A stretch of 64,000 nucleotides of DNA from Neisseria sp. 83E34 (GTDB lineage Bacteria; Pseudomonadota; Gammaproteobacteria; Burkholderiales; Neisseriaceae). Location: the NCBI RefSeq assembly GCF_001308015.1, contig NZ_LGYH01000001.1, positions 124,001 through 188,000 on the forward strand. Reading direction: 5' to 3'. A program made the position numbers and the translations under genes. The notes below the pieces were generated by a model, which searched no databases, was not told where the DNA came from, and worked only from the letters and a program-made list of their open reading frames with translations. Positions 4,178 through 32,013 of the stretch are shown one piece after another; position 1 is the stretch's first letter; every line of letters begins with the position of its first letter.

Positions 4178-5509
4178 TTATAAATGTTTGATTAAGGCAG
4201 GTACGGCCTCAAGCCTTTCCCTGCGGCTGCTTTCCGGCTCGCCCGTATTGAGCGAAGACCATTTAGGATGGCTTCTGGCTTTCGACAATTCGTTCGGCAA
4301 ACGGGAAGGTTGCCACGGCGTTTTGCCGCTGATCATTTGAATATCGTTTTGCGCCGCATGGCCGCGTTTTTGCAGCGCAGCCAATAAATCCAGCGCACGG
4401 GCAGCCAGCAGGGTAATGCTTTCCGGGTCGATAAACAAAGTTTGCTTGCCGCTTAATTTATCGGAAATATCCTGCATATTCGGTAATACCCCACCTAAAA
4501 TGCCGCCGATGGCCGTGCCCAAACCGAGCGAGCCGCCCAGCGTAACCATATCTACGCCTAAGCCGATGAGCGCGCCGGTGGCGGCGCCCGTGCCGGTGCG
4601 GATGCCGTAGGCTTTGAGCTGCTCCGCGTCAAAAGGATCCTGTCTGAATTCTTTTAAAGCCCATTCTCCGGTGTCGATTTCATTGTGGTAGAAGCGGTAA
4701 TTTTGAAACAGCTGTTGCTGAAGCGCACGCTCCAGCTGGCGCACCGAAGCCTGCATTTTGTGTAGAGTCGGCTCGGGCGGGTCGTTTTCGTCGATTTCCT
4801 GTTTGTAAGCCGCCACATCAAGCAAAAAGTGGGCGATATCGCGTTTGGAATCAGCGTTGAGTTGCGCCCATTCGCGCCTGCGCATTTCTATTAAGCGGTC
4901 GAGTATGCCGCGCTCGGGCAGCATGGTGGCAAGGTTGTCCCACAGCCGCACTTCTCCTTCAAAATCAAAGGCTACCGTGTCAAATCCGCTGTAAACATGC
5001 AGCCCGCGCCGCGCCAGCATGGTGGTCCATTCGCTTAAATCCTGCCCTTCGATAAAGTTGAACACAGGCATCACGGGCTTGGCGCACCATGATAAAACGG
5101 TAAGCTCGTCTTTATATTTGTTCAACACCGGCTCGCGCGCATCCACAACATACAAAGCCATATCGCTCTGCAAAAGCTGGCGCAGCACTTTGGCTTCCTG
5201 ATTGAAATCGCCCGCCGCCTCGGGGCTTTCAAGAAACTTGTGCAGCCGCTCGACGCCGTCTTCACGCGAAGAAGTGTGTGTTTCCAGCCAATCCAACACG
5301 CCGCCAGCATCTTCCAAACCGGGCGTGTCATATAAGTGAACCAGTGTACGGTTGCCATCGTTAATCGCCGCTTCTTCCACGTGGCGTGTGGTGGCGGGCG
5401 CGTTTTTGACTTCGCCGAACTGACTATCGCGCAGCAGAGTGCGCAGCAGGGAGGTTTTTCCGGTGTTGGTGTGGCCGACGACGGCCAGGGATAGGGGGGT
5501 GTTTTTCAT
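4178..5509 (-). CDS. DUF3482 GTPase-like membrane protein
   Basis: A 443-residue P-loop GTPase. G1 is GHTNTGKTS at residues 12-20, a Switch I-like threonine pair follows in NAPATTRHV, and G3 is DTPGLED. The C-terminal half (DUF3482) holds a long glycine-rich hydrophobic stretch, GTGAATGALIGLGVDMVTLG onward, likely to enter or bind the membrane. The neighbouring gene encodes DUF2868, and the two families are regularly adjacent in proteobacteria, so they probably work together at the inner membrane. The cellular role is unknown. The gene begins 137 bases after the DUF2868 stop. Confidence 0.8.
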   Translation of the reverse strand: MKNTPLSLAVVGHTNTGKTSLLRTLLRDSQFGEVKNAPATTRHVEEAAINDGNRTLVHLYDTPGLEDAGGVLDWLETHTSSREDGVERLHKFLESPEAAGDFNQEAKVLRQLLQSDMALYVVDAREPVLNKYKDELTVLSWCAKPVMPVFNFIEGQDLSEWTTMLARRGLHVYSGFDTVAFDFEGEVRLWDNLATMLPERGILDRLIEMRRREWAQLNADSKRDIAHFLLDVAAYKQEIDENDPPEPTLHKMQASVRQLERALQQQLFQNYRFYHNEIDTGEWALKEFRQDPFDAEQLKAYGIRTGTGAATGALIGLGVDMVTLGGSLGLGTAIGGILGGVLPNMQDISDKLSGKQTLFIDPESITLLAARALDLLAALQKRGHAAQNDIQMISGKTPWQPSRLPNELSKARSHPKWSSLNTGEPESSRRERLEAVPALIKHL

Positions 5510-5569
5510 AATGACATTATCTACTTAATAAATTAAGGTGAAATGTGTCGTGTGCCTGCTTGTATGTTG

Positions 5570-5658
5570 ATGCCTGTCTGAAAATTCGGCACACGGCTTC
5601 TTAGCGTTATTTAAGGTGTTAGCTAAAATTCAAATTTGAACCGTTTTCAGACAGGCAT
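5570..5658. terminator. Widely spaced inverted DUS pair
   Basis: ATGCCTGTCTGAA (5570-5582) and its inverse (5646-5658) are separated by 63 bases. The right copy overlaps the stop codon of the DUF2868 gene. The long loop makes it a weaker terminator candidate than the tight pairs. Confidence 0.4.
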
Positions 5659-6993
5659 TTCTTTTTGTCTATCCTGTTGGCTGACTCGAGGCGGATTCAG
5701 CCACGGTAGATTGCGCTCATTCAGCGCGTTTTGCCATTGGTTTAAATAATCATCAAGCCTGTCTGAAAAATCTGGAGCGGCAAGCAGTTGGATCACGGCG
5801 CCGCCTTGTGCGGCTTCTGCCAGACTCACGATTTGCCGCAAGATGCCTCGATCCGGCACGTTGTGGGCGCGCACGCCGATTAGCAGTTGGGCGGGGTGTT
5901 GCTGCAATTCGTTTTTGAGCGCGGCTACGGCGTCTCGGCTGTCGGCAGAGCCTTTGTCCAGCCAGTCTTGGCCGAGAACGTGTTTGAACCAATGCGCTTC
6001 GGGCCATTCGGTTTCGAGCATCACAGCCCATTTCGGTGCTTCGTTCAAGCTGATTTTGGGCGTAACGGTGGTAACGGTTTCGCTTTGGGTGTCGGCATCA
6101 ATCACACGCTTTTGCCATTGCTGGATGATGTTTTGATAATAGGGTTTGTCGAGCGGCAGGCGGTGAATGTGTTTGCGCGACAGGATTTTGCAGGTAAGCC
6201 ATGCGGCGAAACGCGGCAGTATGCCGTAGCACATGATGCTGCCGATTAAGAGTCCGCCCCATTGGCGTGCGGTTTCGGTGTTGCTGTTAAGCCTGCTGCC
6301 GAGCACGGCTTCTGCGTCGGGCACGGGAAAACCGAGTTTGGCGGGCAGCCACGCTAAAAGGCTGACGAGGTTAACGGATGTTGCATCGCTTAACAGTGTG
6401 CTTTCCCAGTTGAATGTGTATTGCCGCACCATCAAGAGTAACACCACGGCGGCGAGCATGCCGAACAATGTGGCCAGCCACAGGCGGTGGGTGGTTTCGC
6501 CGATGCGCCAGCGGGCGGAAGGGTGGTTGAACTCATCGCTGTAAAGCCGCAAAACGGCTTGGTTGACCGGATCTTTGCCGCGTATCCATAAAGAAGGGTT
6601 AATGAAAAAGCCAGTGTTTTTGCGCAGCAGAAATAGGGAAGCCGACCATACAATGAGCATTAATGTGTGTAAGCCTAAGATACCGGCCAATACGAAAAAG
6701 AAGTTCAAGCCGCTTTGCTGCATCAGGCCGAACGTGCCGGAAAAGCCGATAAGCAGCCAGATTAGGGTGGCGGCTGCTACAGCCCAGCCGGCGGTGTTGC
6801 GTACACGAAGCAGCGTGTCGTGAAGCTTGTGGTCGCTATCAATCATTTCAGCGCGGCGAATGAGCTTTTTCTCGGCACTTTCCTCGGTTTGACGCAATAC
6901 TTCGGTAATCGGTTGCGGATCGGCGGCGAAAATATAACCGCGCTCTTGTAAAAGGCGCACGAGTTCGGTGAGCTGGATGGAAAGAGGAAACAT
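5647..6993 (-). CDS. DUF2868 inner-membrane protein
   Basis: A 448-residue protein with at least four hydrophobic segments: WAVAAATLIWLLIGFSGTFG, FFFVLAGILGLHTLMLIVW, LWLATLFGMLAAVVLLLMV and LLIGSIMCYGILPRFAAWL. A soluble C-terminal part follows the last of these. This is the DUF2868 layout. It precedes the DUF3482 GTPase on the same strand. The last codons, Met-Pro-Val-stop, are read from an uptake sequence: the TGA of ATGCCTGTCTGA is the stop codon. Function unknown. Confidence 0.78.
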   Translation of the reverse strand: MFPLSIQLTELVRLLQERGYIFAADPQPITEVLRQTEESAEKKLIRRAEMIDSDHKLHDTLLRVRNTAGWAVAAATLIWLLIGFSGTFGLMQQSGLNFFFVLAGILGLHTLMLIVWSASLFLLRKNTGFFINPSLWIRGKDPVNQAVLRLYSDEFNHPSARWRIGETTHRLWLATLFGMLAAVVLLLMVRQYTFNWESTLLSDATSVNLVSLLAWLPAKLGFPVPDAEAVLGSRLNSNTETARQWGGLLIGSIMCYGILPRFAAWLTCKILSRKHIHRLPLDKPYYQNIIQQWQKRVIDADTQSETVTTVTPKISLNEAPKWAVMLETEWPEAHWFKHVLGQDWLDKGSADSRDAVAALKNELQQHPAQLLIGVRAHNVPDRGILRQIVSLAEAAQGGAVIQLLAAPDFSDRLDDYLNQWQNALNERNLPWLNPPRVSQQDRQKEMPV

Positions 6994-7185
6994 TATTATT
7001 GATTATTTTGGTACTGAAAGAATTGGAATTTTAACATAGAGATAAAGCAAAGCATGATGATGGCTTTGTATATGGTGAAATGATTTGATGGGCTGGTTTG
7101 GATGGCCGTTTTTGGCTTTTATCATTTTTTTTAAAATTAATTTTCTTTAAATATCATTAAGATATAATTATTTTTATAAAAAATT

Positions 7186-7214
7186 ATAAGAATTTGCTGG
7201 TAAGTGCCGTCTAA
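7186..7214 (+). promoter_or_regulatory. Ecf-type promoter of the copper-peptide operon
   Basis: ATAAGAATT (7186-7194), 12 bases, CCGTCTAA (7207-7214), then 39 bases to the doxX ATG. The same two blocks with the same spacing occur upstream of msrAB at 30356-30384. CGTCTAA resembles the -10 element of several ECF sigma factors, and the operon encodes an ECF sigma factor. The two-copy conservation is seen directly; recognition by that sigma factor is inferred. Confidence 0.7.
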
Positions 7215-7253
7215 ACGTGTGTACAGCAAATACACAGTGAAAGGTTCACAAAA

Positions 7254-7733
7254 ATGACAGAGATAGCACAACCCGCTGCTTATCATAATCACAACAGCAG
7301 CTTTTCCTCTACTTGGACTAAAGATATTTCTTTGCTCGCTTTACGTTTGTTTGCCGCTTATGAATTTTGGGAAGCGGGTGTTGAAAAGTGGAACGGCGAA
7401 AACTGGTTTGCAGAAATTCAAACAGCCTTTCCTTTCCCATTCAGCGTGTTACCGGCAGATTTAAACTGGTTTACGGCAATGGGTGTTGAATTGGTTGCTC
7501 CCGTATTGCTTGTATTTGGTTTGTTCAGCCGTTATGCCGCCGCAGCATTATTTATGCTCACTGCTGTCGCCTGGTATGCGGTTCACGCAGAAAATGGCTA
7601 TAACATTGTTCAAAATGGTTATAAAATGGCGCTGATTTATTGTCTGGTTATGTTGCCTGTGATATTGCAAGGCTCGGGCAAGCTGTCGCTAGACACTTTA
7701 TTGAAGAAAAAGTTTTCTAAAATTCCGTTGTAA
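7254..7733 (+). CDS. DoxX-family membrane protein (HvfD-like)
   Basis: A 159-residue integral membrane protein with about four hydrophobic segments. It carries DoxX hallmarks: LALRLFAAYEFWEAGVEKW in the first helix, VELVAPVLLVFGLFSRYAA in the second, and a C-terminal segment LIYCLVMLPVILQGSGKLSL. DoxX proteins commonly accompany DUF692/DUF2063 gene pairs and are thought to assist redox steps or handling of the modified peptide at the membrane. It is the first gene of a six-gene run to 10535, behind the Ecf-type promoter. The exact role is unproven. Confidence 0.82.
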   Translation: MTEIAQPAAYHNHNSSFSSTWTKDISLLALRLFAAYEFWEAGVEKWNGENWFAEIQTAFPFPFSVLPADLNWFTAMGVELVAPVLLVFGLFSRYAAAALFMLTAVAWYAVHAENGYNIVQNGYKMALIYCLVMLPVILQGSGKLSLDTLLKKKFSKIPL

Positions 7734-7791
7734 AAACGGTTGTTACCCTCTCGTTAATTTTATTTAAATCAATTTTTTAGGAGTGAACACA

Positions 7792-8082
7792 ATGAAAAAA
7801 ACCTCTTTAATCGCTTTGGCTGGTGCGTTGACTTTGGCTGGTGCTGCATGCGCTGACAGCAAAACCACTACTGTACAACCTGCTCAGCAACAATCACAAA
7901 AAGCGAAAGAAGGCGCTTGCGGACAAGGAAAATGCGGTGCTTCACACAAAACCAGCAAAGCCAAAGCCGGTGAAGGCAAGTGCGGCGAAGGTAAATGTGG
8001 CGAAGGTAAATGCGGTGCTTCTAAAGCACACAGCAAAGCCGCTGAAGGTAAATGCGGCGAAGGTAAATGCGGCAGCAAATAA
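7792..8082 (+). CDS. EGKCG-repeat secreted peptide precursor (HvfA/bufferin-like)
   Basis: A 96-residue precursor. Residues 1-22 form a Sec signal peptide (hydrophobic LIALAGALTLAGA) with a likely cut after Ala-Cys-Ala. The mature part is rich in Lys, Gly and Ala and has seven Cys, five in perfect EGKCG repeats and two in EGACG and QGKCG. In Haemophilus HvfA, EGKCG cysteines are converted by the DUF692 enzyme HvfB with HvfC into copper-binding oxazolone/thioamide groups; bufferins of other proteobacteria are related. The same enzyme genes follow directly here. The ATG at 7792 follows TTAGGAG at good spacing; a GTG nine bases earlier is less likely. Copper binding here is inferred. Confidence 0.88.
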   Translation: MKKTSLIALAGALTLAGAACADSKTTTVQPAQQQSQKAKEGACGQGKCGASHKTSKAKAGEGKCGEGKCGEGKCGASKAHSKAAEGKCGEGKCGSK

Positions 8083-8166
8083 GCTGTTTGCCGGCCGCTG
8101 CGGTAGGCTGCTCCCTATGCAGCGGCTTTCTTTTCCAAACTTATATTTGATTTGATAGGTAAGCAT

Positions 8167-9015
8167 ATGGCTACGGTTTTGCAAGGTGCCGGCTTGGGCT
8201 TTAAGCGTGATCTGGCAGAAGACCTACTGAACATTACCCCTGAAAACAGTCCGATTCAATTTATCGAAGTGGCGCCGGAAAATTGGATTAAAACCGGCGG
8301 TGCGGCACGCAAACAGCTTGATGCGTTGGCGGAACGCTTTCCTATTGCCTGCCACGGGCTTTCGCTTTCACTGGGAGGACGTGATCCTTTACAGGTAGGC
8401 TTTTTGCAGGAAGTTAAAGCCTTTATGCGCCAATACAATATTGATTTTTTCTCCGAACATTTAAGCTATTGCAGCCATTTCGGCCATCTTTATGATCTGT
8501 TACCGCTCACGTTCAATGATGAAACTGTGCGGCATACCGCAGCAAGAATCCGCCAGACGCAAGATATATTGGAGATGCGTATAGCCATTGAAAATACATC
8601 TTCTTATCTGCTCGCTCCGGGAAATGAAATGAGTGAGGTGGCGTTTCTCAATGCGGTGGCAAAAGAAGCGGATTGCGACATCCATTTGGATATCAACAAT
8701 ATTTATGTAAATGCAATGAATCACGGCCAAACCGACGGCCAAACATTTATCGATACGGTAGATTTGGACAAAGTGGTTTACCTGCATATGGCCGGGCATG
8801 ATTCTGATGAAGAAATTTTAATCGATACGCACGGCGAAGCCATTTGCGGCGATGTGTGGACATTATTCGATTATGCTTGCAGTAAGTTTTCCCACCAGCC
8901 GCCTTGCCTGCTTGAGCGCGACACCAATTTCCCGCCTTTTGCCGAACTGGAGGCAGAAGTGGCACGGATTGCCGCCATTCAGAAAATATACGGAAAGCAA
9001 GCAGATGCAGCGTGA
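8167..9015 (+). CDS. DUF692/MNIO multinuclear iron oxidase (HvfB/BufB-like)
   Basis: A 282-residue TIM-barrel enzyme of the DUF692 (MNIO) family. Candidate iron ligands are conserved: [51 protein letters not shown] and LLERD. Family members oxidise cysteine in a partner peptide to oxazolone/thioamide or related groups using a two- or three-iron centre and O2. The substrate should be the EGKCG peptide encoded just upstream. The ATG at 8167 is preferred over the TTG at 8152. The stop overlaps the next start, as expected for translational coupling with the DUF2063 partner. Confidence 0.9.
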
Positions 9016-9739
9016 TGATGTAAGCAAATGTACAGGTGCGGATTTCCAAGCCCAACTGGCTGCCGCAGTAGGTAACCTTGAAGCCGGAGTGCCCCAAAAT
9101 TTTAATGCAAACGGTTTGGCAGTTTACCGCCGTTTGGTGCATAACAATATCGCTTCGTTTTTGGAACGCTGTTTCAGTGACAGCATCACATTTGCCGATG
9201 CGGAGCAATGGCAGGACCTGCAAAGCCGTTTTTTAAGCGAAGGCAAGCCGGAATCGCCTTACTTTAAAGATATTCCCGCCCAGTTTTTAGCATTTGCCCG
9301 AAGCCAGCTTTCAGACAGGCTTCTGCCGCAGAATGTGCTGGCGATGATGGAATTTGAAACAGATTTGTTGCGTGCAGAGACTGCACTATGCGGGTTGCGG
9401 AAGCCGGCTGAATCAAACAACGATATTTTGACATTGGCAGAAGGTGTGCGCCTGAAACAATATCCCGTTGATTTTATTAGAACGGGCCTGAAAAGTTTTG
9501 AGAACGGTGAAACTTATGTGCTCACTTGGCGCAATCTGGAGGATGAAACCTGTTATCAAGCCATTGATGACATTGATGTATTCCTATTGCAGCATTTCGA
9601 GCAGCAAAATGACAGCATTGCTTCGCTCACTCAAAGCATCCGCGAATTGACGGGTAGCAGCGATACCGAACCTTTACTGCTCGAACGGCTGGCACATTGG
9701 CAGGAAGAAGGTGTTTTGATGAAGGTGCAAAACGGATAA
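9005..9739 (+). CDS. DUF2063 peptide-binding partner protein (HvfC/BufC-like)
   Basis: A 244-residue protein. The N-terminal DUF2063 region contains the family motif [21 protein letters not shown] followed by [14 protein letters not shown]. The C-terminal region resembles the peptide-recognition module of HvfC/MbnC partners. Its role would be to bind the leader of the EGKCG peptide and present it to the MNIO enzyme. The ATG at 9005 lies 8 bases inside the upstream gene (stop 9013-9015), a coupled overlap. A shortened uptake-like 11-mer lies inside the gene near 9310. Confidence 0.85.
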
Positions 9740-9741
9740 CC

Positions 9742-10335
9742 ATGCCAACATTTACCGATTTCAGCAACCGCATCGCCGCCTTGCGTCCCGCTATGCTTAA
9801 ATTCGCCAGAATGCAGCTGCGGGATGAAAGCCTGTCTGAAGACTTGGTGCAGGACGCACTTTCCGCAGCCATCAACAAACAAGAACAATACCGGGCAGGT
9901 GCCGAATTGGGCACTTGGGTAATGAGCATACTCAAAAACAAAATCATCGATTATTACCGTGGCCGTAAAGAAATGGTCAGCCTGGATGACAGCGACCAAG
10001 CCGCGAGGATTGATGCACAATATCAAGCCTGTTTCGATGAAAACGGCCATTGGCAGAAAGAATCCGGGCCCGAAGTTTGGCAACCTAATCCCACCGAAGC
10101 CCATTTAGAGCGTCAAGATTTTTTTAAAGTATTGGAGAAATGTCTCGGCAACCTGCCGGAAAATACCGCGCGTATTTTTTATTTGAAAGAAGTCATGGGG
10201 ATGGAAGTAGAAGAAATTTGCCTCGATTTCGGCATTACACCTAATAATTGCTACGCCATCCTGCACCGTGCTCGCAACGGCTTGCGCCAATGCTTGCAGA
10301 AAAATTGGTACGGAACCGACAAAGGAGAAACATAG
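9742..10335 (+). CDS. ecf: ECF RNA polymerase sigma factor
   Basis: A 197-residue sigma-70-family factor. Region 2 covers roughly residues 10-75, with SEDLVQDALSAAINK and LGTWVMSILKNKIIDYYRGR. An acidic linker follows, then region 4 (about 125-185) with LPENTARIFYLKEVMGMEVEEIC and GITPNNCYAILHRARNGLRQCL. It starts 2 bases after the upstream stop. The gene order DoxX/peptide/DUF692/DUF2063/sigma/anti-sigma matches the neisserial ecf locus, whose sigma factor is known in gonococci to control msrAB. The matching promoters at 7186 and 30356 support the same regulon here. Confidence 0.9.
   Translation: MPTFTDFSNRIAALRPAMLKFARMQLRDESLSEDLVQDALSAAINKQEQYRAGAELGTWVMSILKNKIIDYYRGRKEMVSLDDSDQAARIDAQYQACFDENGHWQKESGPEVWQPNPTEAHLERQDFFKVLEKCLGNLPENTARIFYLKEVMGMEVEEICLDFGITPNNCYAILHRARNGLRQCLQKNWYGTDKGET
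9830..9840 (+). repeat. Partial DUS inside ecf
   Basis: GCCTGTCTGAA, the 11-base core lacking the leading T, lies in the coding sequence of region 2. Confidence 0.5.
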
Positions 10336-10535
10336 TGTTGATTAAATGCAAAGAGGCATGCCGGCTGCTTTCCGAGCAGCAAGACAGGCCGCTTAGTGTG
10401 CAGGAACACATTACCTTGCGACTCCACCTTGCCTATTGTTCGCATTGTCGTAAATACAGTCAGCAGATGCAGCAAATCAGTGACAATATGCAAGCATGGG
10501 TGAAGCATCTTTCGGAAGAAGAACAGAATAAATAA
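10335..10535 (+). CDS. mseR: Zinc-type anti-sigma factor (MseR-like)
   Basis: A 66-residue protein starting at GTG 10335, which shares its first base with the TAG stop of the sigma gene and follows AAAGGAG at 8 bases. It has the anti-sigma zinc motif H-x3-C-x2-C in LRLHLAYCSHCRKY (about residues 31-38) and no transmembrane segment. Such proteins bind their ECF partner and release it when the cysteines are oxidised or lose zinc. In the meningococcus the equivalent gene downstream of the sigma gene is mseR. Oxidant or metal sensing here is inferred. Confidence 0.85.
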   Translation: MLIKCKEACRLLSEQQDRPLSVQEHITLRLHLAYCSHCRKYSQQMQQISDNMQAWVKHLSEEEQNK

Positions 10536-10551
10536 CCGTGAATGAAAAACA

Positions 10552-10585
10552 ATGCCTGTCTGAAAAATGTGTTTCAGACAGGCAT
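10552..10585. terminator. Inverted DUS pair after the ecf operon
   Basis: Perfect copies at 10552-10564 and 10573-10585 with an 8-base loop, between the anti-sigma gene and the convergent MlaC-like gene. It can terminate both. Confidence 0.7.
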
Positions 10586-10614
10586 TGTTGATTTTGCTGT
10601 TAGATGAAATAACC

Positions 10615-11223
10615 TTACTCAACTTTTTTCAGGCCTTTTTGGCGCACAGTTTCAATGGTGCCGTCGATGCCTTTTTGCTTCACCAGCTCATTAAATTGGT
10701 TGCGGTACACGGTTACAAGGCTGGCTCCGTCCACTTGGATATCATAAATTTTATAAGTGGAGCCGACCGGATAGAGGCGGTAGCCCACTTCGTATTTTTT
10801 ACCGCTACTGGTCTTAATTTCAGTAAATACGGTAACGCGCTTGTTTTTTTCCTCTGTCAGTTTCGGCAACATGGTCACTTGCGAATCCACCGCGCCCATT
10901 AAAGCGGAATGCGAATAAATGGAAACCACCATGTCTTTAAACGCTTTGATAAACTCGTTTTTCTGGTTGGCATTGAACTCGCGCCACGGCATGCCTACAG
11001 CCAGCGCGGAAATGCGCTGGTAATCCAAATAGCGGTCGGCATAGCCGGTAATGCGTTGGATTTTTTGGTTTTCGTTTAAGCTCTTGTCGCGCGCGATTTT
11101 CAGAACGGCATCCATGTTTTGCTTAAACTGCGTTTGTGCCGGATGTTGTGCGGGCGCGGCGTGTACGAAAGGTGCGGCCACTAACACCGGCGCAGTCAAT
11201 ATCACGGTAAAGATTTTATTCAT
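10615..11223 (-). CDS. MlaC/Ttg2D-family periplasmic lipid-binding protein
   Basis: A 202-residue secreted protein with a signal peptide (MNKIFTVILTAPVLVAAPF, cut near VHA-AP). The body has the MlaC pattern: RISALAVGMPWREFNANQKNEF, a FKDMVVSIYSHSALM helix, VFTEIKTSSGKKYEVGYRLY and YKIYDIQVDGASLVTVYRNQF. MlaC carries phospholipids across the periplasm in retrograde transport. No other mla gene is adjacent, so this may be a paralogue outside the main mla operon. A good ribosome-binding site (AGAGAGGAT on the minus strand) precedes the start. Confidence 0.85.
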   Translation of the reverse strand: MNKIFTVILTAPVLVAAPFVHAAPAQHPAQTQFKQNMDAVLKIARDKSLNENQKIQRITGYADRYLDYQRISALAVGMPWREFNANQKNEFIKAFKDMVVSIYSHSALMGAVDSQVTMLPKLTEEKNKRVTVFTEIKTSSGKKYEVGYRLYPVGSTYKIYDIQVDGASLVTVYRNQFNELVKQKGIDGTIETVRQKGLKKVE

Positions 11224-11429
11224 ATTTAATCCTCTCTGGTTTTTGTTTTGGAAACATTTGCAGCATTTATAAGCATAGCAGGGTAGGCATTCGGGTGAGC
11301 AAGGTTTTCAATATTTTGCTGAAAGTAAACTTAATTGAATAACACGATTGGTCACAAAGCAGTGAGCCGATCACCGCTTTGTATAAAAAACTCATTTTCA
11401 CGCTACGCTAATATTATGAAAATAAATAA

Positions 11430-11684
11430 TTGGAAAAACAGTATGTCAGGCAAGAAAAATTTATTGTAAAGCCGAATGATTGCATTACGGGATGGTCGCA
11501 TGTGCCGGATGGATTTATAGGCGTCTTAGTCGGTTGGTCGGCGGTTGAGTCGTTTGCTCTGGCTGAGTTTTTCGGTGTGGTTTACTGCGGGGACGGCATG
11601 TTCGGTTGGGGATATGATCGGTTGTATCATTGGGTGCGCGATTTGGATGAAGATAGCGAAGAAGAGAATAAAGGCGGTGATTAG
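11430..11684 (+). CDS. Small hypothetical protein
   Basis: An open frame of 84 codons from a TTG at 11430. The product is rich in Trp and Gly (GVLVGWSAVESFALAEFFGVV, GMFGWGYDRLYHWV) with an acidic tail (DLDEDSEEENKGG). No family is recognised. An upstream ATG at 11416 opens a different frame that stops after 17 codons, so the true N-terminus is unclear: either a non-ATG start or an old frameshift. An uptake-sequence terminator follows, which supports a real transcription unit. Confidence 0.4.
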   Translation: MEKQYVRQEKFIVKPNDCITGWSHVPDGFIGVLVGWSAVESFALAEFFGVVYCGDGMFGWGYDRLYHWVRDLDEDSEEENKGGD

Positions 11685-11706
11685 CTGCTTGGCTGTGTTT
11701 ACGGCA

Positions 11707-11736
11707 ATGCCTGTCTGAACGCTTTCAGACAGGCAT
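11707..11736. terminator. Inverted DUS pair
   Basis: Perfect copies at 11707-11719 and 11724-11736 with a 4-base loop, after the small hypothetical gene. Confidence 0.65.
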
Positions 11737-11816
11737 TTATGCTGCCGGCTGATAAAGTTTTGCGGCGTTTGACGGTTTTTTAGGTTAAAATATGCGGCTA
11801 TTTGGCCTGATACCGA

Positions 11817-11846
11817 ATGCCTGTCTGAAAGCGTTCAGACAGGCAT
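11817..11846. terminator. Inverted DUS pair just upstream of lepA
   Basis: Perfect copies at 11817-11829 and 11834-11846, ending only 28 bases before the lepA start. Two hairpins thus stand within 140 bases. This one may lie in the lepA leader and not act as a terminator. Confidence 0.5.
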
Positions 11847-11874
11847 TTCAAAATACTGCATCATCATGAACACT

Positions 11875-13668
11875 ATGAAAAATATCCGAAATTTCTCTAT
11901 CATCGCCCATATCGACCACGGTAAATCCACGCTGGCCGACCGCTTCATTCAATATTGTGGCGGCTTGGAAATGCGCGAAATGAGTACGCAGGTGCTCGAT
12001 TCTATGGACATTGAAAAAGAGCGCGGCATTACTATCAAGGCACAAACCGCTGCGTTGAACTATAAAGCGCGGGATGGCCAGGTGTACCAACTCAATCTGA
12101 TTGATACGCCGGGGCACGTCGATTTTTCTTATGAAGTGTCGCGCTCACTGTCTGCTTGCGAAGGCGCGCTTTTGGTAGTGGACGCTTCGCAGGGCGTGGA
12201 AGCGCAAACCGTTGCCAACTGTTACACGGCGATTGATTTGGGTGTGGAAGTAGTGCCGGTGTTGAACAAAATCGACTTGCCCGCAGCCGATCCCGATCGC
12301 GTAGCGCAGGAAATTGAAGATATTATCGGCATTGATGCTGTGGGTGCGGTAACCTGCTCGGCTAAGAGCGGCTTGGGCGTGGAAGACGTGCTGGAAGAAA
12401 TCGTGGCGAAAATTCCCGCTCCAACCGGTGACCCCGAAGCGCCTCTACAAGCTATGATTATAGACTCGTGGTTTGACAATTATGTGGGCGTGGTGATGCT
12501 GATCCGCGTTAAAAATGGTACTTTGAAGCTGAAAGACAAAGTGCGCTTTATGTCGACCAAAGCGGAAACACTGGTGGAGCAGCTGGGCGTGTTTACACCG
12601 AAATCCGTTGCCAAGCAGCAATTGAGCGCGGGTGAGGTGGGCTTTTTGATTACCGGCGTAAAAGAGCTGGGGCAGGCCAAAGTGGGCGACACGGTAACGC
12701 TGGTGTCCAACCCTGCTGCCGAGCCGCTGCCGGGCTTCCAAGAAGTGCAATCGCAGGTGTTTGCCGGTTTGTATCCGGTGGAAAGCCACGATTACGAAGC
12801 CTTGCGCGAAGCGCTGGAAAAGCTGCAATTGAATGATGCCTCCCTGAAATTCGAGCCGGAAGTGTCGCAGGCTTTGGGCTTCGGTTTCCGTTGCGGCTTC
12901 CTCGGCCTCTTGCATCTGGAAATTGTGCAGGAGCGCTTGGAGCGCGAGTTTGATATGGACTTGATCACCACCGCGCCGACGGTGGTGTATGAAGTGATTA
13001 TGAAAAACGGCGAAAAAATCGAGGTGGAAAATCCATCGAAACTGCCCGATATCGGCAGCATCGAAACGATTTTAGAGCCGATTATCACTGCAACTATCTT
13101 AGTGCCGCAGGAATATGTGGGCAATGTGATGACTTTGTGTAACCAAAAGCGTGGTGTGCAGGTGAATATGCAGTATATGGGCCGCCAGGTAATGCTCACT
13201 TACGATTTGCCGATGAACGAAGTGGTGATGGATTTCTTCGACAAGCTCAAGTCCACTTCGCGCGGATACGCTTCTTTGGATTATGAATTTAAAGAATTCC
13301 AACCTTCCGATTTGATTAAGCTCGATATTATGGTGAACGGCGAGAAAGTAGATGCGCTGAGCCTGATTGTGCACCGCCAAAGCGCAGTTCACCGCGGGCG
13401 AGAGCTGGCCGCCAAGATGCGCGAGCTGATTCCGCGCCAGATGTTTGATATTGCCGTTCAGGCAGCCATCGGCAGCCAGATCATTGCGCGCGAAAACGTG
13501 AAGGCATTGCGTAAAAACGTATTGGCTAAGTGCTACGGCGGCGATATTACGCGTAAGAAGAAATTGTTGGAAAAACAAAAAGCAGGTAAGCGCCGCATGA
13601 AGCAAGTGGGTAATGTGGAGATTCCGCAAAGTGCGTTTTTGGCGATTTTACAAGTGGGAGACAAATAA
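11875..13668 (+). CDS. lepA: Elongation factor 4 (LepA)
   Basis: A translational GTPase that acts on ribosomes, aiding back-translocation or initiation-complex formation under ionic stress. From the ATG at 11875 the protein has 597 residues, the normal length. An in-frame ATG at 11866 adds only MNT and neither has a clear ribosome-binding site. G1 is AHIDHGKST (residues 11-19), G3 DTPGHVDF, G4 NKID. The C-terminal EF4-specific domain ends with [20 protein letters not shown] and KRRMKQVG. The stop lies 3 bases before lepB, the conserved lepA-lepB operon. Confidence 0.97.
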
Positions 13669-17564: not shown

Positions 17565-17589
17565 AAAGAGATAAGAAAGGAATCAAACC

Positions 17590-18345
17590 ATGTGGGACAA
17601 AAAATGGGTTATCGGCAATTGGAAAATGAATGGCCAGTTGCAGAATAATAATGCATTGGTTCACAAACTGCGCTCTTTACCCAAAATGGACAATGTCTGT
17701 ATCGGTATTTCACCGCCCACAGTTTATTTATCTCAAGTACATAATGCCGTTAAAATCGTTTTGGAAAACAAAATCCATACATGTGCGCAGGATGTCAGCC
17801 GTTTTAACGGCAGCGGCGCCTATACCGGTGAAGTGTCGGCAGAAATGATGAAAGATGTGGGTGTTGACATTGTTTTAATCGGCCACTCGGAGCGCAGCCT
17901 GTATTTCAATGAAAAAAACGACGTGCAGCGCCATAAAATCGAAAACGTACTCAATGTCGGCCTTACGCCGCTTTTATGTGTAGGCGAAAGTATAAAAGAG
18001 CGGGAAGACGGTCGAGAGAAAGAAGCCGTGGCTTACCAGCTTTCCGTATTTAAAGGCCTCAAAACCAAACATTTCGCCGTTGCTTACGAGCCGGTATGGG
18101 CGATCGGCACGGGCAAAGTGGCCACGAAAGAGCAAATCGCAGATATGCACGATTTCATTTACAACGAAATCTTGTCATTGTGTGGAGAAGATGCTAATAT
18201 CCGCATTCTTTACGGCGGTAGTGTAAACGATAAAAACGCAGCCGAGATTTTTACCGTTCCTCATGTAGACGGTGCTTTGGTCGGTGGCGCATCGCTTAAA
18301 TACGAATCATTTACCGCAATTATCCAAGCCGCCCAAGATGCTTAA
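17590..18345 (+). CDS. tpiA: Triosephosphate isomerase
   Basis: Interconverts dihydroxyacetone phosphate and glyceraldehyde-3-phosphate. The 251-residue TIM barrel starts [10 protein letters not shown] (catalytic Asn/Lys), has the His in IGHSERS, the catalytic Glu loop in [16 protein letters not shown], and ends with [11 protein letters not shown] and [22 protein letters not shown] precedes the ATG. secG follows after 9 bases. Confidence 0.97.
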
Positions 18346-18354
18346 AGAACATTT

Positions 18355-18702
18355 ATGGAAACCATTAAAACCGTTATCTGGTTATTGAATATTTTTGCTT
18401 CGATTACCGTAATCATCTTGGTGCTGATGCAACAAGGTAAAGGTGCGGATGCAGGCGCTACATTCGGCGGAAGCGGTAGCGCACAAGGCGTTTTCGGTTC
18501 GGCCGGTAGTGCAAACTTTTTAAGCCGCGCCACAGCTATTGCTGCAACGGTTTTTTTTGCCAGCTGCTTAAGCTTGGTATATATTAATACCCATGTTCCC
18601 AAACATGGTTTGGATTTCAGCACAGTGCAGCAGCAAAGTGCTCCGGCTCAAACGGAACAAGGTGCAACGAGCCCGGCAACATCGGCTTCTGGCACACAAT
18701 AA
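18355..18702 (+). CDS. secG: Preprotein translocase subunit SecG
   Basis: A 115-residue inner-membrane protein that assists SecYE. It has two transmembrane segments (VIWLLNIFASITVIILVLM and AIAATVFFASCLSLVYI) joined by the typical glycine-rich loop QQGKGADAGATFGGSGSAQG. The C-terminal tail is rich in Gln, Ser and Ala and is variable in the family. tpiA-secG-tRNA-Leu is a common order in proteobacteria. Confidence 0.94.
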   Translation: METIKTVIWLLNIFASITVIILVLMQQGKGADAGATFGGSGSAQGVFGSAGSANFLSRATAIAATVFFASCLSLVYINTHVPKHGLDFSTVQQQSAPAQTEQGATSPATSASGTQ

Positions 18703-18709
18703 AATTTAT

Positions 18710-18795
18710 GCCGACATGGTGAAATTGGTAGACACGCCATCTTGAGGGGGTGGTGACCTTAGGTCGTATGAGTTCAAGTCTCATTGTCGGCACCA
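18710..18795 (+). tRNA. tRNA-Leu (GAG)
   Basis: An 86-base class II tRNA. The acceptor stem is GCCGACA/TGTCGGC with encoded ACCA. The anticodon stem CCATC/GGTGG encloses loop TTGAGGG with anticodon GAG. A long variable arm and a T arm (TTCAAGTCTC) follow. It lies 7 bases after secG. Its 3' part (18773-18787) is the integration site of the 9 kb element that follows, and the tRNA remains intact. Confidence 0.95.
18773..18787 (+). repeat. attL core of the integrated element
   Basis: TTCAAGTCTCATTGT in the tRNA-Leu T arm and acceptor stem is repeated exactly at 27806-27820. The pair marks the likely crossover core of the integrase. At 15 bp the core is short; sequence beyond it does not match. 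Confidence 0.7.
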
Positions 18796-18803
18796 TCAAA
18801 AGA

Positions 18804-18832
18804 AAACAGCCCAATTTTCGGGCTGTTTTTTT
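18804..18832 (+). terminator. Intrinsic terminator after tRNA-Leu
   Basis: ACAGCCC/GGGCTGT stem around AATTTTC, followed by T7. It ends the tpiA-secG-tRNA transcript. Confidence 0.75.
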
Positions 18833-18965
18833 ACGTCTAATACAGTCTAACCACATAAACCAAAATCCAAGCATAGTAAGGCTTACAGCCCGATAAAGGG
18901 CGTTTTAAGACGGCCTTAATTATCCAATACAGTAAAATCCCGTCTAATTGAATAAACCAAAAAAC

Positions 18966-19014
18966 GGGGGTATATTTAGGGGTATCTGAAAAACACCCCT
19001 AAAAAAATACCCCC
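18966..19014. promoter_or_regulatory. Inverted arm-type repeat in front of the integrase gene
   Basis: GGGGGTATATTTAGGGGTAT (18966-18985) faces ACCCCTAAAAAAATACCCCC (18995-19014), ending two bases before the integrase ATG. A third copy with 19 of 20 bases identical lies at 27733-27752 near the right end. Paired arm sites near both ends are what a tyrosine integrase or its excisionase would bind; overlap with the int start suggests autoregulation. Inference from position. Confidence 0.5.
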
Positions 19015-19016
19015 AA

Positions 19017-20222
19017 ATGCCATTAAACGACCGCCAAATAAAGAACGCCAAGCCCGCCGCTAAGCCATACAAACTAGCAGATGGTAAGGGTATGTTTTTA
19101 CAGGTTACACCAGCGGGCGGGAAGTTATGGCGGTTGAAATACCGCATAGACGGCAAAGAAAAACTACTTTCAATCGGCAAATATCCCGCCGTTTCTTTAA
19201 GTGAAGCACGGGAAGCCGCCGAAAATGCCCGCCGCCTGATTGCCATAGGGCAAGACCCCAGCGCAGTCAAGCAACAGGCCAAGCAAGAGCGGCAGGCCGC
19301 CCTACTGAATACCTTTGAGGCAATAACGCGCCGATGGCATAGCGAGAATCTGCACCGCTGGAAGCCCGACAATGCCGCCCGCATTCTCAATCACTTTGCA
19401 AAAGACGTTTTCCCACATATCGGCGGGCAACAGATAGACGGTATAGCCGTATCAGACGTGAAAGGCGTAATCGAGCGCATAGCCGCCCGCAATGCAACGG
19501 CCACCGCTGAAAAAATCAGGCAATGGATAGCCGCCGTATATGGCTATGCCGCCATGCTAGAAATAACCGACCGTAACCCCGCCGCCCCATTACGCGGCTT
19601 TTTGGCCAAAGCGGAAACCCACCATTTACCCGCCTTGCCCCGTGAAGAACTGGCCGAGTTTTACCGCCGCTTGATATTGGCCGATATTGACCCGCAAAAT
19701 CGTATAGCCGTAATGCTGGTTATGCTGGTGTTCGTAAGAAGCACCGAATTACGCGGCGGCCAATGGCATGAAATAGACTGGCAGGCGAAAACATGGACTA
19801 TCCCCGCCGAGCGAATGAAGCTACCCCGCGCCCATGTGATACCGCTTTCAGATTGGACGCTGGAATTACTGCAAGAGCTACACGGCCACACAGGACAAAC
19901 GCCCTATTTATTCCCCAGCCGCACAAAAACGACAGGATTTATCAGCGAAGCCACCCTAAATCGAATTATCGAGCGGTTAGGATACAAAGGCACGGCCACG
20001 CCGCACGGATTCCGCAGTTTGGCCAGCAGCGTATTAAACGAACAGGACTTTAACCCCGATGCCATAGAACGGCAGCTTGCCCATGTGCCGAAAGATAAAA
20101 TCCGCGCTGCCTACAATCGGGCGGAATACTGGCTGCATAGGGTAGAAATGATGCAATGGTATTCAGACTATTTGCGCGAGCGTTACAACCAAGCCCGCGC
20201 CATGATTGAAGCAGACAGCTAA
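19017..20222 (+). CDS. int: Tyrosine integrase (P4 type)
   Basis: A 401-residue recombinase. The N-terminal DUF4102-type arm-binding domain begins MPLNDRQIKNAKPAAKPYKL and continues with RLKYRIDGKEKLLSIGKYP and VSLSEAREAAENARRLIAIG. The core-binding region is in the middle. The catalytic domain shows Arg in LVFVRSTELRGGQW, His-x-x-Arg in ATPHGFRSLASSVL, and the C-terminal QLAHVPKDKIRAAYNRAEYW, where Tyr is the likely nucleophile. It lies next to the tRNA that provides its attachment site. Confidence 0.93.
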   Translation: MPLNDRQIKNAKPAAKPYKLADGKGMFLQVTPAGGKLWRLKYRIDGKEKLLSIGKYPAVSLSEAREAAENARRLIAIGQDPSAVKQQAKQERQAALLNTFEAITRRWHSENLHRWKPDNAARILNHFAKDVFPHIGGQQIDGIAVSDVKGVIERIAARNATATAEKIRQWIAAVYGYAAMLEITDRNPAAPLRGFLAKAETHHLPALPREELAEFYRRLILADIDPQNRIAVMLVMLVFVRSTELRGGQWHEIDWQAKTWTIPAERMKLPRAHVIPLSDWTLELLQELHGHTGQTPYLFPSRTKTTGFISEATLNRIIERLGYKGTATPHGFRSLASSVLNEQDFNPDAIERQLAHVPKDKIRAAYNRAEYWLHRVEMMQWYSDYLRERYNQARAMIEADS

Positions 20223-20251
20223 GAATAAAATAGGCATCTGAAAACAAAAAT

Positions 20252-20277
20252 ACCAGCCCTTGCGCTGGTGTTTTTTA
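20252..20277 (+). terminator. Intrinsic terminator after int
   Basis: ACCAGC/GCTGGT stem with 6-base loop followed by GTTTTTT. Similar CCAGC...GCTGG hairpins end the DUF927 gene and, in decayed form, the antitoxin gene. Confidence 0.7.
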
Positions 20278-20800
20278 TTGGAAATATCAATATTTGAGCT
20301 TTTTTTATTGTTTTTTGATTATATTTGATAGGTTTTTAGTGTGTTTTGAGTATTTTTAAGTAAATTGAGTTAGACCGTATTAGGCCGTATCAATCTATAT
20401 TAGGTAAAAAATACCTCCATAAAATAAGCACCCCCCTACCAATTTCACATATTCAATCAGTTATATTGAGTAAATATATGTAAGTAAGAGAGCATTAAAA
20501 TGCAACCAAGTTTAAACATAAAGAGTAAATATAGACAAAGACCGAAAAACCCCCTTTAAAAACCCTTTAAAGCCCGACTAGGAACCGCATAACAAACACC
20601 TGCCAATATTTTTTTTCAAAATTCAGTCAAATTCAATCTATCAGCCTTTTTAACGCCTTTTTAACGCCCTTAATATATTGATTTTTTTCATTTGCACAAA
20701 AGCTAGTGGGTTAGGATTTGCAGTCTTTGGGGTTCCCATTTTGCCGAAATTTGGTGTAGCTTGAAAAAAGCAATATAACAACACCAAAGGCAATCAAATC
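20278..20800. other. AT-rich gene-free stretch in the element
   Basis: About 520 bases without a convincing gene, very AT-rich, with runs such as CAATCTAT seen twice (near 20387 and 20633). It separates int from the alpA-like operon and probably holds the control region and promoter of that operon. No clear operator or RNA could be assigned. Confidence 0.4.
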
Positions 20801-21019
20801 ATGACAACCCAATCCATTTTACGAGCAAAACAAGTGGCCGAGCGTTTAGGAATTTCAACCGCTGCTATTTGGTATAAGGTTAATCCTAAAAGCCGCCACT
20901 ATGACGCAGATTTTCCACAGCCTTTTAAAATATCCGTTAACGCCACAGGATGGCTTGAAAGTGAAATTAACAGTTACATTGAAAGGCTGGCAGCCAAACG
21001 TAAAGGGGCGCAATCATGA
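20801..21019 (+). CDS. AlpA-like HTH regulator/excisionase
   Basis: A 72-residue MerR/AlpA-type HTH protein: ILRAKQVAERLGISTAAIWY (helix-turn-helix), then FPQPFKISVNATGWLESEIN, the standard second half with a W-x-E-S/E-I pattern. AlpA-like proteins activate integrase or excision genes in P4-like elements. Its TGA overlaps the ATG of the next gene by 4 bases (ATGA), so the two are co-translated. Confidence 0.85.
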   Translation: MTTQSILRAKQVAERLGISTAAIWYKVNPKSRHYDADFPQPFKISVNATGWLESEINSYIERLAAKRKGAQS

Positions 21020-21498
21020 CTGTTTATGCTTATACCAGTATTACCGAAGTTCAGACAGCCTTTGCTACCCTTTCTAAACTGGAAAAACGCAGAGCAGAGA
21101 AAATAACTAAATTGCAAACCAAGATTGCTGATTTGACTGCCAAGCATGAGGCAGAAATAGTAGGCGATACCACAGAAATTGCCGCCATACGCGCCGCTAT
21201 TGCCGCCTATGCCGAAGCCAACCGAGCCGAGCTTACTCACAACGGTAAAAGCAAAACTGCCAGCTTTGGCACGGGGGTTATCAAATGGCGAAAGCTGCCT
21301 GCAAAAGTTGAAATTACAGGAGATACCGTCGATATTTTAGCTGCTTTGAAACGCCGACGCTTGAACCGTTTTATCCGTGTGAAAGAGGAATTGGATAAAA
21401 CCGCTATTTTGAAAGAAGCTACTGCCATCAAAACGCCGATTAAGGGCTTGAGTATTATCAACGGCGGGGAATTATTAACTATTGAAACCGCTGCATAA
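21016..21498 (+). CDS. gam: Gam-family host-nuclease inhibitor
   Basis: A 160-residue protein of the Mu Gam type, which coats DNA ends and blocks exonucleases. It has an N-terminal coiled coil (KLEKRRAEKITKLQTKIADL onward) and the family segment SKTASFGTGVIKWRKLPAKVEI, followed by RRRLNRFIRVKEELDKTAIL. It lies in an overlapping run with the AlpA-like gene and 2 bases before the Mor-like gene. Gam would protect linear or replicating forms of the element. Assignment by motif recognition. Confidence 0.8.
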   Translation: MTVYAYTSITEVQTAFATLSKLEKRRAEKITKLQTKIADLTAKHEAEIVGDTTEIAAIRAAIAAYAEANRAELTHNGKSKTASFGTGVIKWRKLPAKVEITGDTVDILAALKRRRLNRFIRVKEELDKTAILKEATAIKTPIKGLSIINGGELLTIETAA

Positions 21499-21500
21499 TT

Positions 21501-22142: not shown

Positions 22143-22174
22143 CACCCGCCCGCAGCAAGGGCAATAATGGCCGC

Positions 22175-22194
22175 GTTACTGTAAATCCAGTAAC
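22175..22194 (+). other. Hairpin after the Mor-like gene
   Basis: GTTACTG/CAGTAAC with a 6-base loop and no T run. Just downstream CCCGAATATCAG occurs twice (near 22234 and 22258), bounded by GCCGC and GCGGC. This looks like a structured control region, not a plain terminator. Confidence 0.35.
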
Positions 22195-22304
22195 CAGCCG
22201 TGAGAAGCTGAATAACTAGGCAAGCAAGCCGCCCCGAATATCAGAGCTACCCGATAGCCCGAATATCAGCGGCGTTTATATTGTTTGCATCCCCCTTGTT
22301 TTAC

Positions 22305-22440: not shown

Positions 22441-22447
22441 AAACATC

Positions 22448-22852: not shown

Positions 22853-22864
22853 AGGCCGTCTGAA
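22853..22864 (+). repeat. Foreign-dialect uptake sequence (AG-DUS)
   Basis: Perfect AGGCCGTCTGAA directly overlapping the stop of the preceding gene (TAA 22850-22852 then AGGCCG). This dialect is used by other Neisseria species, not by the surrounding chromosome. Confidence 0.8.
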
Positions 22865-22903
22865 ACCGCCCCCCAATCCCTAAACACACCCTTTTTAAAA
22901 CGC

Positions 22904-23219: not shown

Positions 23220-23229
23220 GGGGCAATCT

Positions 23230-26252: not shown

Positions 26253-26286
26253 AGCCCTTAATTCTGATTGGCCGAAAACCAACCCG

Positions 26287-30355: not shown

Positions 30356-30384
30356 ATAAGAATTCAGACAGGCATTCCGTCTAA
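30356..30384 (+). promoter_or_regulatory. Ecf-type promoter of msrAB with a DUS in its spacer
   Basis: ATAAGAATT (30356-30364), 12 bases, CCGTCTAA (30377-30384), identical in both blocks and spacing to the promoter at 7186-7214. A reverse uptake sequence TTCAGACAGGCAT (30363-30375) fills the spacer. The msrAB start is 48 bases downstream. Gonococcal msrAB is known to be Ecf-dependent, in agreement. Confidence 0.72.
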
Positions 30385-30432: not shown

Positions 30433-32013
30433 ATGGAACCGCGGTTTAAACATGCTAAAAAATTTGCATTGCTGGCCGCTTCTGCTGCAACGGCTTTTGC
30501 ATTGATCTGGTACTTGCCGCAGGCAGGCGCGGAGCGGGTAGCTGAAAAACCGGTGGCTGCTTTATCCGTGTTGCATGATACGGCGGGCAAGCCTGCTGCC
30601 AATTACCTTCAGGCAGGCAAACCGACTTTGGTGAAGTTTTGGGCAAGCTGGTGCCCGTTATGCCTGTCTGAATTGGAACCGACCGAAGCATGGGTGAAAG
30701 ACCCGCGTTTTAAAAACGCCAATTTGGTTACCGTGGCATCGCCCGGCTATCTCGGAGAAAAAGCCCCGGGCGATTTTGAAGTATGGTATAAAGGCTTGAG
30801 CTACCCCGCACTGCCGGTGCTGTCCGATCCCGGCGGCAAATTGGCGCAAAGCCTGAATATCGGCGTTTACCCGTCTTGGGCGTTATTGGATAAAAACGGC
30901 AAAGTTGCCCGCATTATCAAAGGGCGAATCAATGAGGCGCAGGCTTTGGCATTGCTGGAAAATCCCGAAGCCGATTTGGGCAAACTGCAAAACACATTTT
31001 ACAAATCAGAGAAAAAGGAATCCGTACCAATGAATACCCGAACCATCTATCTTGCCGGCGGTTGCTTTTGGGGCTTGGAAGCCTATTTCCAACGCATCAA
31101 CGGTGTGGTTGACGCCGTGTCAGGCTATGCCAACGGGAAAACAGATAGCAAACCTTCTTATGAAGACGTGGTTTACCGCAACACCGGCCATGCCGAAACC
31201 GTGAAAGTCACTTACGATGCCGACAAGCTGAGCCTGGATGATATTTTGCAATACTATTTCCGCGTGGTTGACCCGACCAGCCTCAACAAACAAGGCAACG
31301 ACACCGGTACGCAATACCGCACCGGCGTGTATTACACCGATGTGGCCGAGCAGAAAACCATTGCCGCCGCGCTGGCAAAAGAGCAGCAAAAATATAGCAA
31401 ATCACTTGTAGTGGAAAACCTACCTTTGGCCCAGTTTCACGAAGCTGAGGAATACCATCAGGATTATTTGCTGAAAAACCCCAACGGCTATTGCCATATC
31501 GACATCCGCAAAGCCGATGAGCCGCTGCCCGGAAAAAGCGCTCCTGCCGATAAAAAAGGCTTCGATGCCGCAGCCTACCGCAAGCCCAGCGACAGCGAAC
31601 TGAAAAACAAACTTACCGCCGAGCAATACCGCGTTACCCAGCAAAGCGGCACCGAATACGCCTTCAGCCATGAATACGACCACCTCTTCGCGCCGGGCAT
31701 TTATGTAGATATTGTCAGCGGCGAACCCCTGTTCAGCTCGGCTGACAAATACAATTCCGGCTGCGGCTGGCCGAGCTTTACCCGCCCGATTGAAGCTGCC
31801 GCCGTAACCGAGCATGAAGACAACAGCTACAACATGCAGCGCGTAGAAGTGCGCAGCCGCGCCGCTGATTCGCACTTGGGCCACGTTTTCCCCGACGGCC
31901 CGAAAGACAAAGGCGGCTTGCGCTACTGCATCAACGGCGCCAGCCTGCGCTTCGTGCCTTTGGATAAAATGGACGCCGAAGGCTACGGGCATTTGAAAAC
32001 GTTGGTGAAATAA
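30433..32013 (+). CDS. msrAB: Trx-MsrA-MsrB methionine sulfoxide reductase fusion
   Basis: A 526-residue three-domain enzyme (also called PilB) that reduces S- and R-methionine sulfoxide in exported proteins. An N-terminal hydrophobic segment ([18 protein letters not shown]) directs export. The thioredoxin-like domain carries WASWCPLC (Cys74/Cys77). MsrA begins near residue 200 with GGCFWG (Cys211). MsrB has SGCGWPSF (Cys444) and the catalytic LRYCING (Cys499). A plus-strand uptake sequence (30661-30672) codes for Cys77-Leu-Ser-Glu. The gene is preceded by the Ecf-type promoter shared with the copper-peptide operon. Confidence 0.97.
30661..30672 (+). repeat. DUS overlapping the thioredoxin active site codons
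   Basis: TGCCTGTCTGAA encodes the second Cys of WCPLC plus LSE in the MsrAB thioredoxin domain. Since CLSE is also typical of orthologues in species with other DUS dialects, protein constraint may explain the match. Confidence 0.6.

Follow-up and report, generated by a model that had tools for sequence, protein, structure and literature searches.

The window analysed here, a stretch of 64,000 nucleotides (nt) from Neisseria sp. 83E34 (contig NZ_LGYH01000001.1, positions 124,001 to 188,000), contains a six-gene operon that we identify, with a probability of about 0.9, as the Neisseria sigmaE (rpoE-mseR) operon making a ribosomally synthesized and post-translationally modified peptide (RiPP) of the captophorin/oxazolin type. 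By analogy with characterized relatives, an iron enzyme encoded in this operon very probably converts the cysteine-repeat peptide into a copper-binding form. The six genes encode, in order, a DoxX protein, a precursor with EGKCG repeats, an MNIO (DUF692) enzyme, a DUF2063 partner, an extracytoplasmic function (ECF) sigma factor and a zinc-associated anti-sigma (ZAS) factor (Table 1). An original prediction for this locus had placed these genes in one co-directional run and read them as an HvfABC-type RiPP cluster with its own ECF sigma and zinc-type anti-sigma factors; all six were found there on the + strand, each gene call was confirmed by Pfam and NCBIfam family searches, and the family matches listed in Table 1 exceeded their cut-offs. 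The operon itself is already known, as the counterpart of the described sigmaE/MseR operon whose class of product has also been reported in the genus, and no claim of discovery should therefore rest on the locus.

Position 7186, where the originally noted stretch begins, is the first base of the promoter -35 element. The tight run with coupled overlaps that had been proposed holds for part of the operon: the MNIO and DUF2063 genes overlap by 11 nt, the sigma gene follows DUF2063 after 2 nt, and the sigma and anti-sigma genes share 1 nt if the latter starts at GTG 10335 rather than at the alternative TTG 10338. The first two gaps, 58 nt between DoxX and precursor and 84 nt between precursor and MNIO, are not tight. 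The inverted pair of TGCCTGTCTGAA downstream probably closes the operon as a terminator, and an Rfam search of positions 5500-12000 returned nothing at the gathering threshold.

Table 1. Peptide operon and predicted second sigma target, in window coordinates.
Feature	Position	Strand	Evidence
sigmaE-type (ECF) promoter	7186..7215	+	-35 ATAAGAATT 7186-7194, 13-nt spacer, -10 CGTCTAAA 7208-7215; read from sequence
DoxX / HvfX-family membrane protein, 159 aa	7254..7733	+	PF07681 8.2e-21; NF050144 HvfX 130.1 bits, cut-off 80
RiPP precursor (captophorin/oxazolin type), 96 aa	7792..8082	+	NF050137 63.6 bits, cut-off 19.5, 3 stretches; sequence
MNIO (DUF692) maturase, HvfB family, 282 aa	8167..9015	+	PF05114 5.3e-97; NF003818 361.5 bits, cut-off 360; 3bww 2.7e-100
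DUF2063 partner (PME1 / HvfC family), 244 aa	9005..9739	+	PF09836 9.5e-15; PF22106 NGO1945_C 1.8e-13; NF050145 HvfC 146.6 bits, cut-off 142; 3dee 4.4e-29
ECF sigma factor, 197 aa, counterpart of meningococcal sigmaE by position and family	9742..10335	+	TIGR02943 210.9 bits, cut-off 162.2; Sigma70_r2, Sigma70_r4_2
ZAS-type anti-sigma factor, 66 aa from GTG, counterpart of MseR by position and motif	10335..10535	+	NF052368 76.5 bits, cut-off 50; zf-HC2 1.7e-06
Inverted pair of TGCCTGTCTGAA, likely operon terminator	10553..10584	.	sequence
Second copy of promoter pattern, ATAAGAATT-13-CGTCTAA, 48 nt before msrAB	30356..30384	+	pattern search
msrAB (thioredoxin-like domain, MsrA, MsrB), 526 aa, predicted second sigma target	30433..32013	+	MsrA PF01625 2.0e-58 at G000:C1:155042-155497 (window 31042-31497); thioredoxin and MsrB by eye

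The precursor start at ATG 7792 is preceded by AGGAG, an in-frame GTG at 7783 being also possible. The peptide carries five EGKCG, one EGACG and one QGKCG motif and consists of a signal sequence ending ...LAGAACA, a spacer, EGACG-QGKCG, a linker, three consecutive EGKCG, a further linker and two EGKCG. The signal peptide was judged by eye and its cleavage site inferred. Five EGKCG repeats are thus present as had been anticipated, within a total of seven GxCG cysteines, whereas the count of seven cysteines in the mature peptide holds only if cleavage follows ACA, since an eighth cysteine (residue 20 from the ATG) lies where the signal peptide ends. Comparison with the HvfA and bufferin families, proposed earlier as the way to decide the class, gave a divided answer: NF050137 was matched well over its cut-off (63.6 against 19.5 bits), as expected of the secreted EGKCG-repeat precursor of a captophorin cluster, whereas the strict HvfA family was missed (see below) and DUF2282 gave no match at E up to 1 in the Pfam search. 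The 42 precursors from 34 Neisseria genomes contain between 2 and 10 EGKCG motifs each, and the precursor of N. wadsworthii 9715 differs from that of the window by one extra EGKCG unit (15 nt) near the 3' end of the gene. In one genome (G023, locus L142) the precursor apparently shifts frame after the fourth GxCG motif and continues without the usual EGKCGEGKCGSK end, perhaps through a genuine frameshift, perhaps as an artefact of assembly.

HMMER alignment of the MNIO protein to 7dz9 (VcMbnB), read by eye, identified nine of nine MbnB-type iron ligands (H63, H98, E142, D175, N178, H207, D220, H222 and E250); those reported for VcMbnB are H55, H91, E135, D165, N168, H194, D209 and E238, and H211 is mentioned alongside them (PMC8888699). 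The original prediction had been staked on the DUF692 protein keeping its iron ligands on alignment and, as all nine are present, no ligand has been lost. The nine are invariant in 35 sequences, namely that of the window, 33 Neisseria relatives and the Haemophilus influenzae protein, whose open reading frame (ORF) is numbered 10 higher in this alignment, presumably through an upstream start. N178, D220 and H222 correspond to N175, D242 and H244 of HvfB, reported as essential residues (PMC13419390). With these ligands and an NF003818 score of 361.5 bits against a cut-off of 360, the enzyme falls in the HvfB group, whereas scores against the bufferin maturase family NF050167 (MNIO_BufB; 260.9 bits, cut-off 310) and the methanobactin family TIGR04159 (MbnB; 43.5 bits, cut-off 325) lie below threshold. 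Its closest solved relative by sequence is 3bww. The partner has the composition of PME1, a DUF2063 domain (PF09836) followed by a C-terminal domain (PF22106) with an NF050145 match, encoded beside the MNIO gene; the only solved relative found for it, the distant match 3dee, is N. gonorrhoeae NGO1945 (NgoC).

The regulatory genes also have published counterparts. The meningococcal operon NMB2140-2145 is reported to be polycistronic and sigmaE-driven, with msrAB as a second target and MseR as anti-sigma factor, and the gonococcal genes NGO1948-1943 have the same organisation (PMC2893595, 2010). The window operon likewise has six genes with DoxX first and rpoE and the ZAS anti-sigma gene last. 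Read from TTG 10338 the anti-sigma factor (MIKC...HLAYCSHC) has C4, H30, C34 and C37, numbers identical to those of the MseR zinc-motif residues Cys4, His30, Cys34 and Cys37 (PMC2893595); a PDB search with this protein gave weak matches to unrelated proteins only. Reported fold changes on deletion of meningococcal mseR are 35.9 for the doxX gene, 12.0-13.1 for three hypothetical genes, 6.3 for sigmaE and 80.5 for msrAB (PMC3240639, 2011). The published sigmaE consensus is GTMAGBWTT, 12-13 nt, CGTCTAAH (PMC2893595), from which the window promoter departs at two -35 positions. A search of the 2.42-Mb genome with the pattern TAAGNNTT-11-15-CGTCTAA returned two sites, the operon promoter and the site at 30356-30384 before msrAB, and the two-target regulon of peptide operon and msrAB seems, from these sites, to hold in a species near N. 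wadsworthii. The spacer of the msrAB promoter contains the presumed uptake sequence TGCCTGTCTGAA (- strand, 30363-30374), which overlaps the last two -35 bases.

To place the operon in its genus, 46 Neisseria genomes, 41 of them good assemblies, were searched. A PF05114 MNIO was present in 34 (33 of the 41 good assemblies), and the loci of these 34 were compared as the window itself and 33 fetched stretches. The order DoxX, precursor(s), MNIO, DUF2063, sigma and anti-sigma on one strand, with the sigma gene starting less than 1 kb past the end of DUF2063, was found in 32 of the 34, and for this reason the operon is not a chance arrangement. The exceptions are G007, where sigma and anti-sigma genes lie about 11.3 kb off on the opposite strand, and G008, whose only sigma match is 48-49% identical and far away on the chromosome. 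A promoter motif ([GA]T[AC]AG, 16-19 nt, CGTCTA), sought from 250 nt upstream to 60 nt inside the DoxX ORF start, was also present in 32 of 34; this expression was fixed after viewing the aligned sites, with background tiles as its control, and it matched one of 1345 non-overlapping 310-nt tiles from the same loci (both strands). G004 has CGTCCA in place of CGTCTA, and G008 lacks the motif. G008, a single case, is thus the sole genome without a sigma gene near the operon and also has no motif. Control by the sigma/anti-sigma pair is accordingly the genus norm, a rule across the sampled Neisseria that this analysis adds to the published descriptions.

Sigma matches at E up to 1e-20 occurred in 36 genomes, the 34 with MNIO plus G001 and G022, both of which gave no PF05114 match. 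G022 retains sigma and anti-sigma genes with no DoxX, precursor, MNIO or DUF2063 gene within the surrounding 8.6 kb. In G001 and G008 an ECF sigma (48-49% identical to that of the window) and an anti-sigma factor lie in different surroundings, the sigma gene of G001 being preceded by one for a small protein which, judged by eye, is rich in Met/His and secreted; these two matches may represent a paralogue. The closest named relative is N. wadsworthii 9715 (locus L149; MNIO 99%, sigma 96%). Outside Neisseria, seven of 76 loci were examined (L006-L011 and L020). A Bisgaardia locus (L010) shares the six-gene order and carries a GTAAG...CGTCTAA site, and a metagenome-assembled Pasteurellaceae genome (L008) has sigma and anti-sigma genes upstream of DoxX and CGTCTAA with a GTAAT -35. 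Alysiella (L011) has both regulatory genes with no match to the promoter motif, and the fetched DNA of L006, L007, L009 and L020 contains neither sigma gene nor motif.

Several results count against the identification of the operon or of its function. No site in this genome matches the exact published consensus, even with 10-16 nt spacing. A search allowing up to three mismatches found two sites, a number reached by 10 of 100 shuffles. The pattern TAAGNNTT-11-15-CGTCTAA was derived from the window's own site and is partly circular, and a reversed control pattern also gave two sites; the number of sites is not evidence since the control equals it, and only the position before msrAB carries weight. 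The precursor scored 66.4 bits against the strict HvfA equivalog NF050188 (cut-off 95), and strict HvfA membership was rejected. Meningococcal rpoE/sigmaE and msrAB transcripts are reported not to be raised by H2O2, diamide, singlet oxygen or SDS-EDTA, although in gonococci MsrA/B, NGO1947 and NGO1948 are said to increase with H2O2 (PMC2893595). The word copper is absent from the main text of both meningococcal sigmaE papers (PMC2893595, PMC3240639).

The peptide might chiefly be a sink for oxidants or hypochlorite, or an envelope thiol buffer, with copper binding incidental and the sigma pair and msrAB forming an oxidative-damage regulon. The promoter pattern common to the operon and msrAB fits such a role, as do the HOCl induction of the Haemophilus doxX cluster, which requires RpoE2 (PMC7907618, 2021), and the rise of gonococcal ecf, msrAB and ecf-operon genes on neutrophil exposure (PMC11257400, 2024). 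The lack of a meningococcal response to the agents named above shows, however, that oxidant induction is not general, and copper is bound both by gonophorin, made by heterologous expression of N. gonorrhoeae genes and carrying one to two Cu, and by fontiphorin (PMC12668002, November 2025 preprint). We consider a predominantly oxidant-directed role unlikely. Copper binding had been part of the original prediction and is supported by homology.

A further possibility is that the real task of the sigma factor is msrAB and that the peptide operon is a passenger that the cell can afford to lose. The 80.5-fold change of msrAB is the largest among the rows seen of the published table (PMC3240639), 12 of the 46 Neisseria genomes (8 of the 41 good assemblies) have no MNIO match, and G022 keeps sigma and anti-sigma genes with the other operon genes not beside them. 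Of the 34 genomes with MNIO, however, 32 have sigma and anti-sigma genes no more than 1 kb downstream and 32 have the operon promoter, and we regard the passenger interpretation as improbable. The chemistry of the product was initially expected to be that of oxazolone/thioamide pairs, as first proposed for HvfA; the NCBIfam family name still says so, and this was the first structural assignment of oxazolin as reported in PMC12668002. Alkylation-assisted heteronuclear multiple bond correlation (HMBC) data on oxazolin and gonophorin are reported to be incompatible with such pairs, the oxazolin structure has been revised to 5-thiooxazole, the group also found in gonophorin by nuclear magnetic resonance (NMR) (PMC12668002), and a 2026 HvfB preprint likewise writes 5-thiooxazole (PMC13419390). 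On this published NMR of relatives oxazolone/thioamide formation was rejected, and it is very improbable here.

With the sigmaE-controlled, copper-binding captophorin thus preferred, a mechanism can be proposed in which a stress signal would inactivate the cytoplasmic ZAS anti-sigma factor and free the ECF sigma factor, which would act on two promoters of one type to switch on msrAB and the operon that encodes the sigma factor itself. In the cytoplasm the HvfB-like diiron enzyme would, with help from the HvfC-like partner, convert EGKCG cysteines of the precursor into 5-thiooxazoles, after which the signal peptide would route the modified peptide out through Sec. Once in the periplasm the peptide would bind Cu(I), with MsrAB repairing methionine sulfoxide, and DoxX may assist at the membrane. 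Sigma control, 5-thiooxazole formation and copper binding have each been demonstrated by others in gonococcus, meningococcus or Haemophilus, and from these relatives we infer modification, export and physiological role of the peptide in the present species.

A pair of EGKCG precursors is encoded in eight of the 34 Neisseria operons (G044, G008, G011, G012, G045, G002, G027 and G021; L121-L128). The precursor nearer to DoxX has a lipobox (LAGC) in every one of these operons and the other has none, which suggests from the signal sequences that of the two peptides one is lipidated and the other soluble; a looser lipobox is also matched by the lone precursors of L135 (LVAC) and L143 (MTGC). According to PMC12452194, lipoprotein signals occur in roughly 16% of Buf2 bufferins, and certain clusters contain tandem precursor genes. 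The lipobox-bearing second precursor is possibly a less-described variant: lipoprotein, lipobox and lipid do not occur in the main text of PMC12668002, and the literature on lipidated EGKCG peptides was searched no further. As a tentative and rather doubtful extension, the sigmaE/anti-sigma pair could run a two-part envelope defence that combines a thiooxazole peptide of variable repeat number, as a Cu(I) trap, with repair of oxidised methionine by MsrAB; in some members of the genus the trap would have been split into a soluble and a DoxX-proximal lipidated peptide, giving a membrane-anchored captophorin beside DoxX.

Elsewhere in the window, TGCCTGTCTGAA occurs 62 times where shuffles expect 0.01. 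We take it to be the uptake-sequence dialect of N. wadsworthii, a literature check having given no confirming passage. Positions 17565-28287 are free of TGCCTGTCTGAA yet hold nine of ten GCCGTCTGAA sites (22528-27630), and ORFs at 19017-20222, 23185-24339 and 24494-26242 resemble by eye genes for a tyrosine integrase, a primase and a helicase, respectively. This region probably entered as an integrated element whose source was a Neisseria using a different uptake-sequence dialect.

Among known systems the operon is closest to NMB2140-NMB2145/NGO1948-NGO1943, with which it shares six genes, terminal positions of DoxX and of rpoE with the ZAS anti-sigma gene, promoter class, a predicted msrAB target and MseR residues, and from which it differs in the two -35 deviations from the published consensus; NMB2141-2143 were labelled hypothetical proteins of unknown function in the 2010 paper (PMC2893595). 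The sigma control regarded in the original prediction as distinctive is therefore not so, the operon and MseR having been described in 2010-2011 (PMC2893595, PMC3240639) and H. influenzae using RpoE2 (PMC7907618). What is added at the sequence level is the genus counts, the finding that G008 lacks both a nearby sigma gene and the motif, the promoter before msrAB in this genome and the lipobox precursor in 8 of 34 operons. Nor is the product class undescribed, as had been supposed, since gonophorin (ngoABC, captophorin class) arises from the same combination of precursor, MNIO and PME1 with NgoC being 3dee (PMC12668002); the window partner is however distant from NgoC, and the likeness is drawn here from the combination of genes. 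Buf_EGKCG/oxazolin precursors and PME1 were defined in PMC12452194 (2025). The oxazolin cluster HvfABC plus DoxX of H. influenzae (L009) has the same DoxX-precursor-MNIO-DUF2063 order with a 56% identical MNIO and is likewise controlled by an ECF sigma factor paired with a ZAS anti-sigma factor, but the genes for RpoE2-HrsE lie in the msrAB region (PMC7907618), and the L009 stretch showed no sigma or anti-sigma gene. The suggested match to bufferins was not upheld, and bufferin membership was rejected on the missing DUF2282 and the MNIO_BufB score below cut-off. Bufferin 1 shares MNIO, DUF2063, DoxX, 5-thiooxazole and, in some clusters, sigma-factor genes with the present system, and differs in its DUF2282 precursor and in an anti-sigma factor reported to be of the NrsF type, whereas that of the Neisseria operon is a small ZAS protein.

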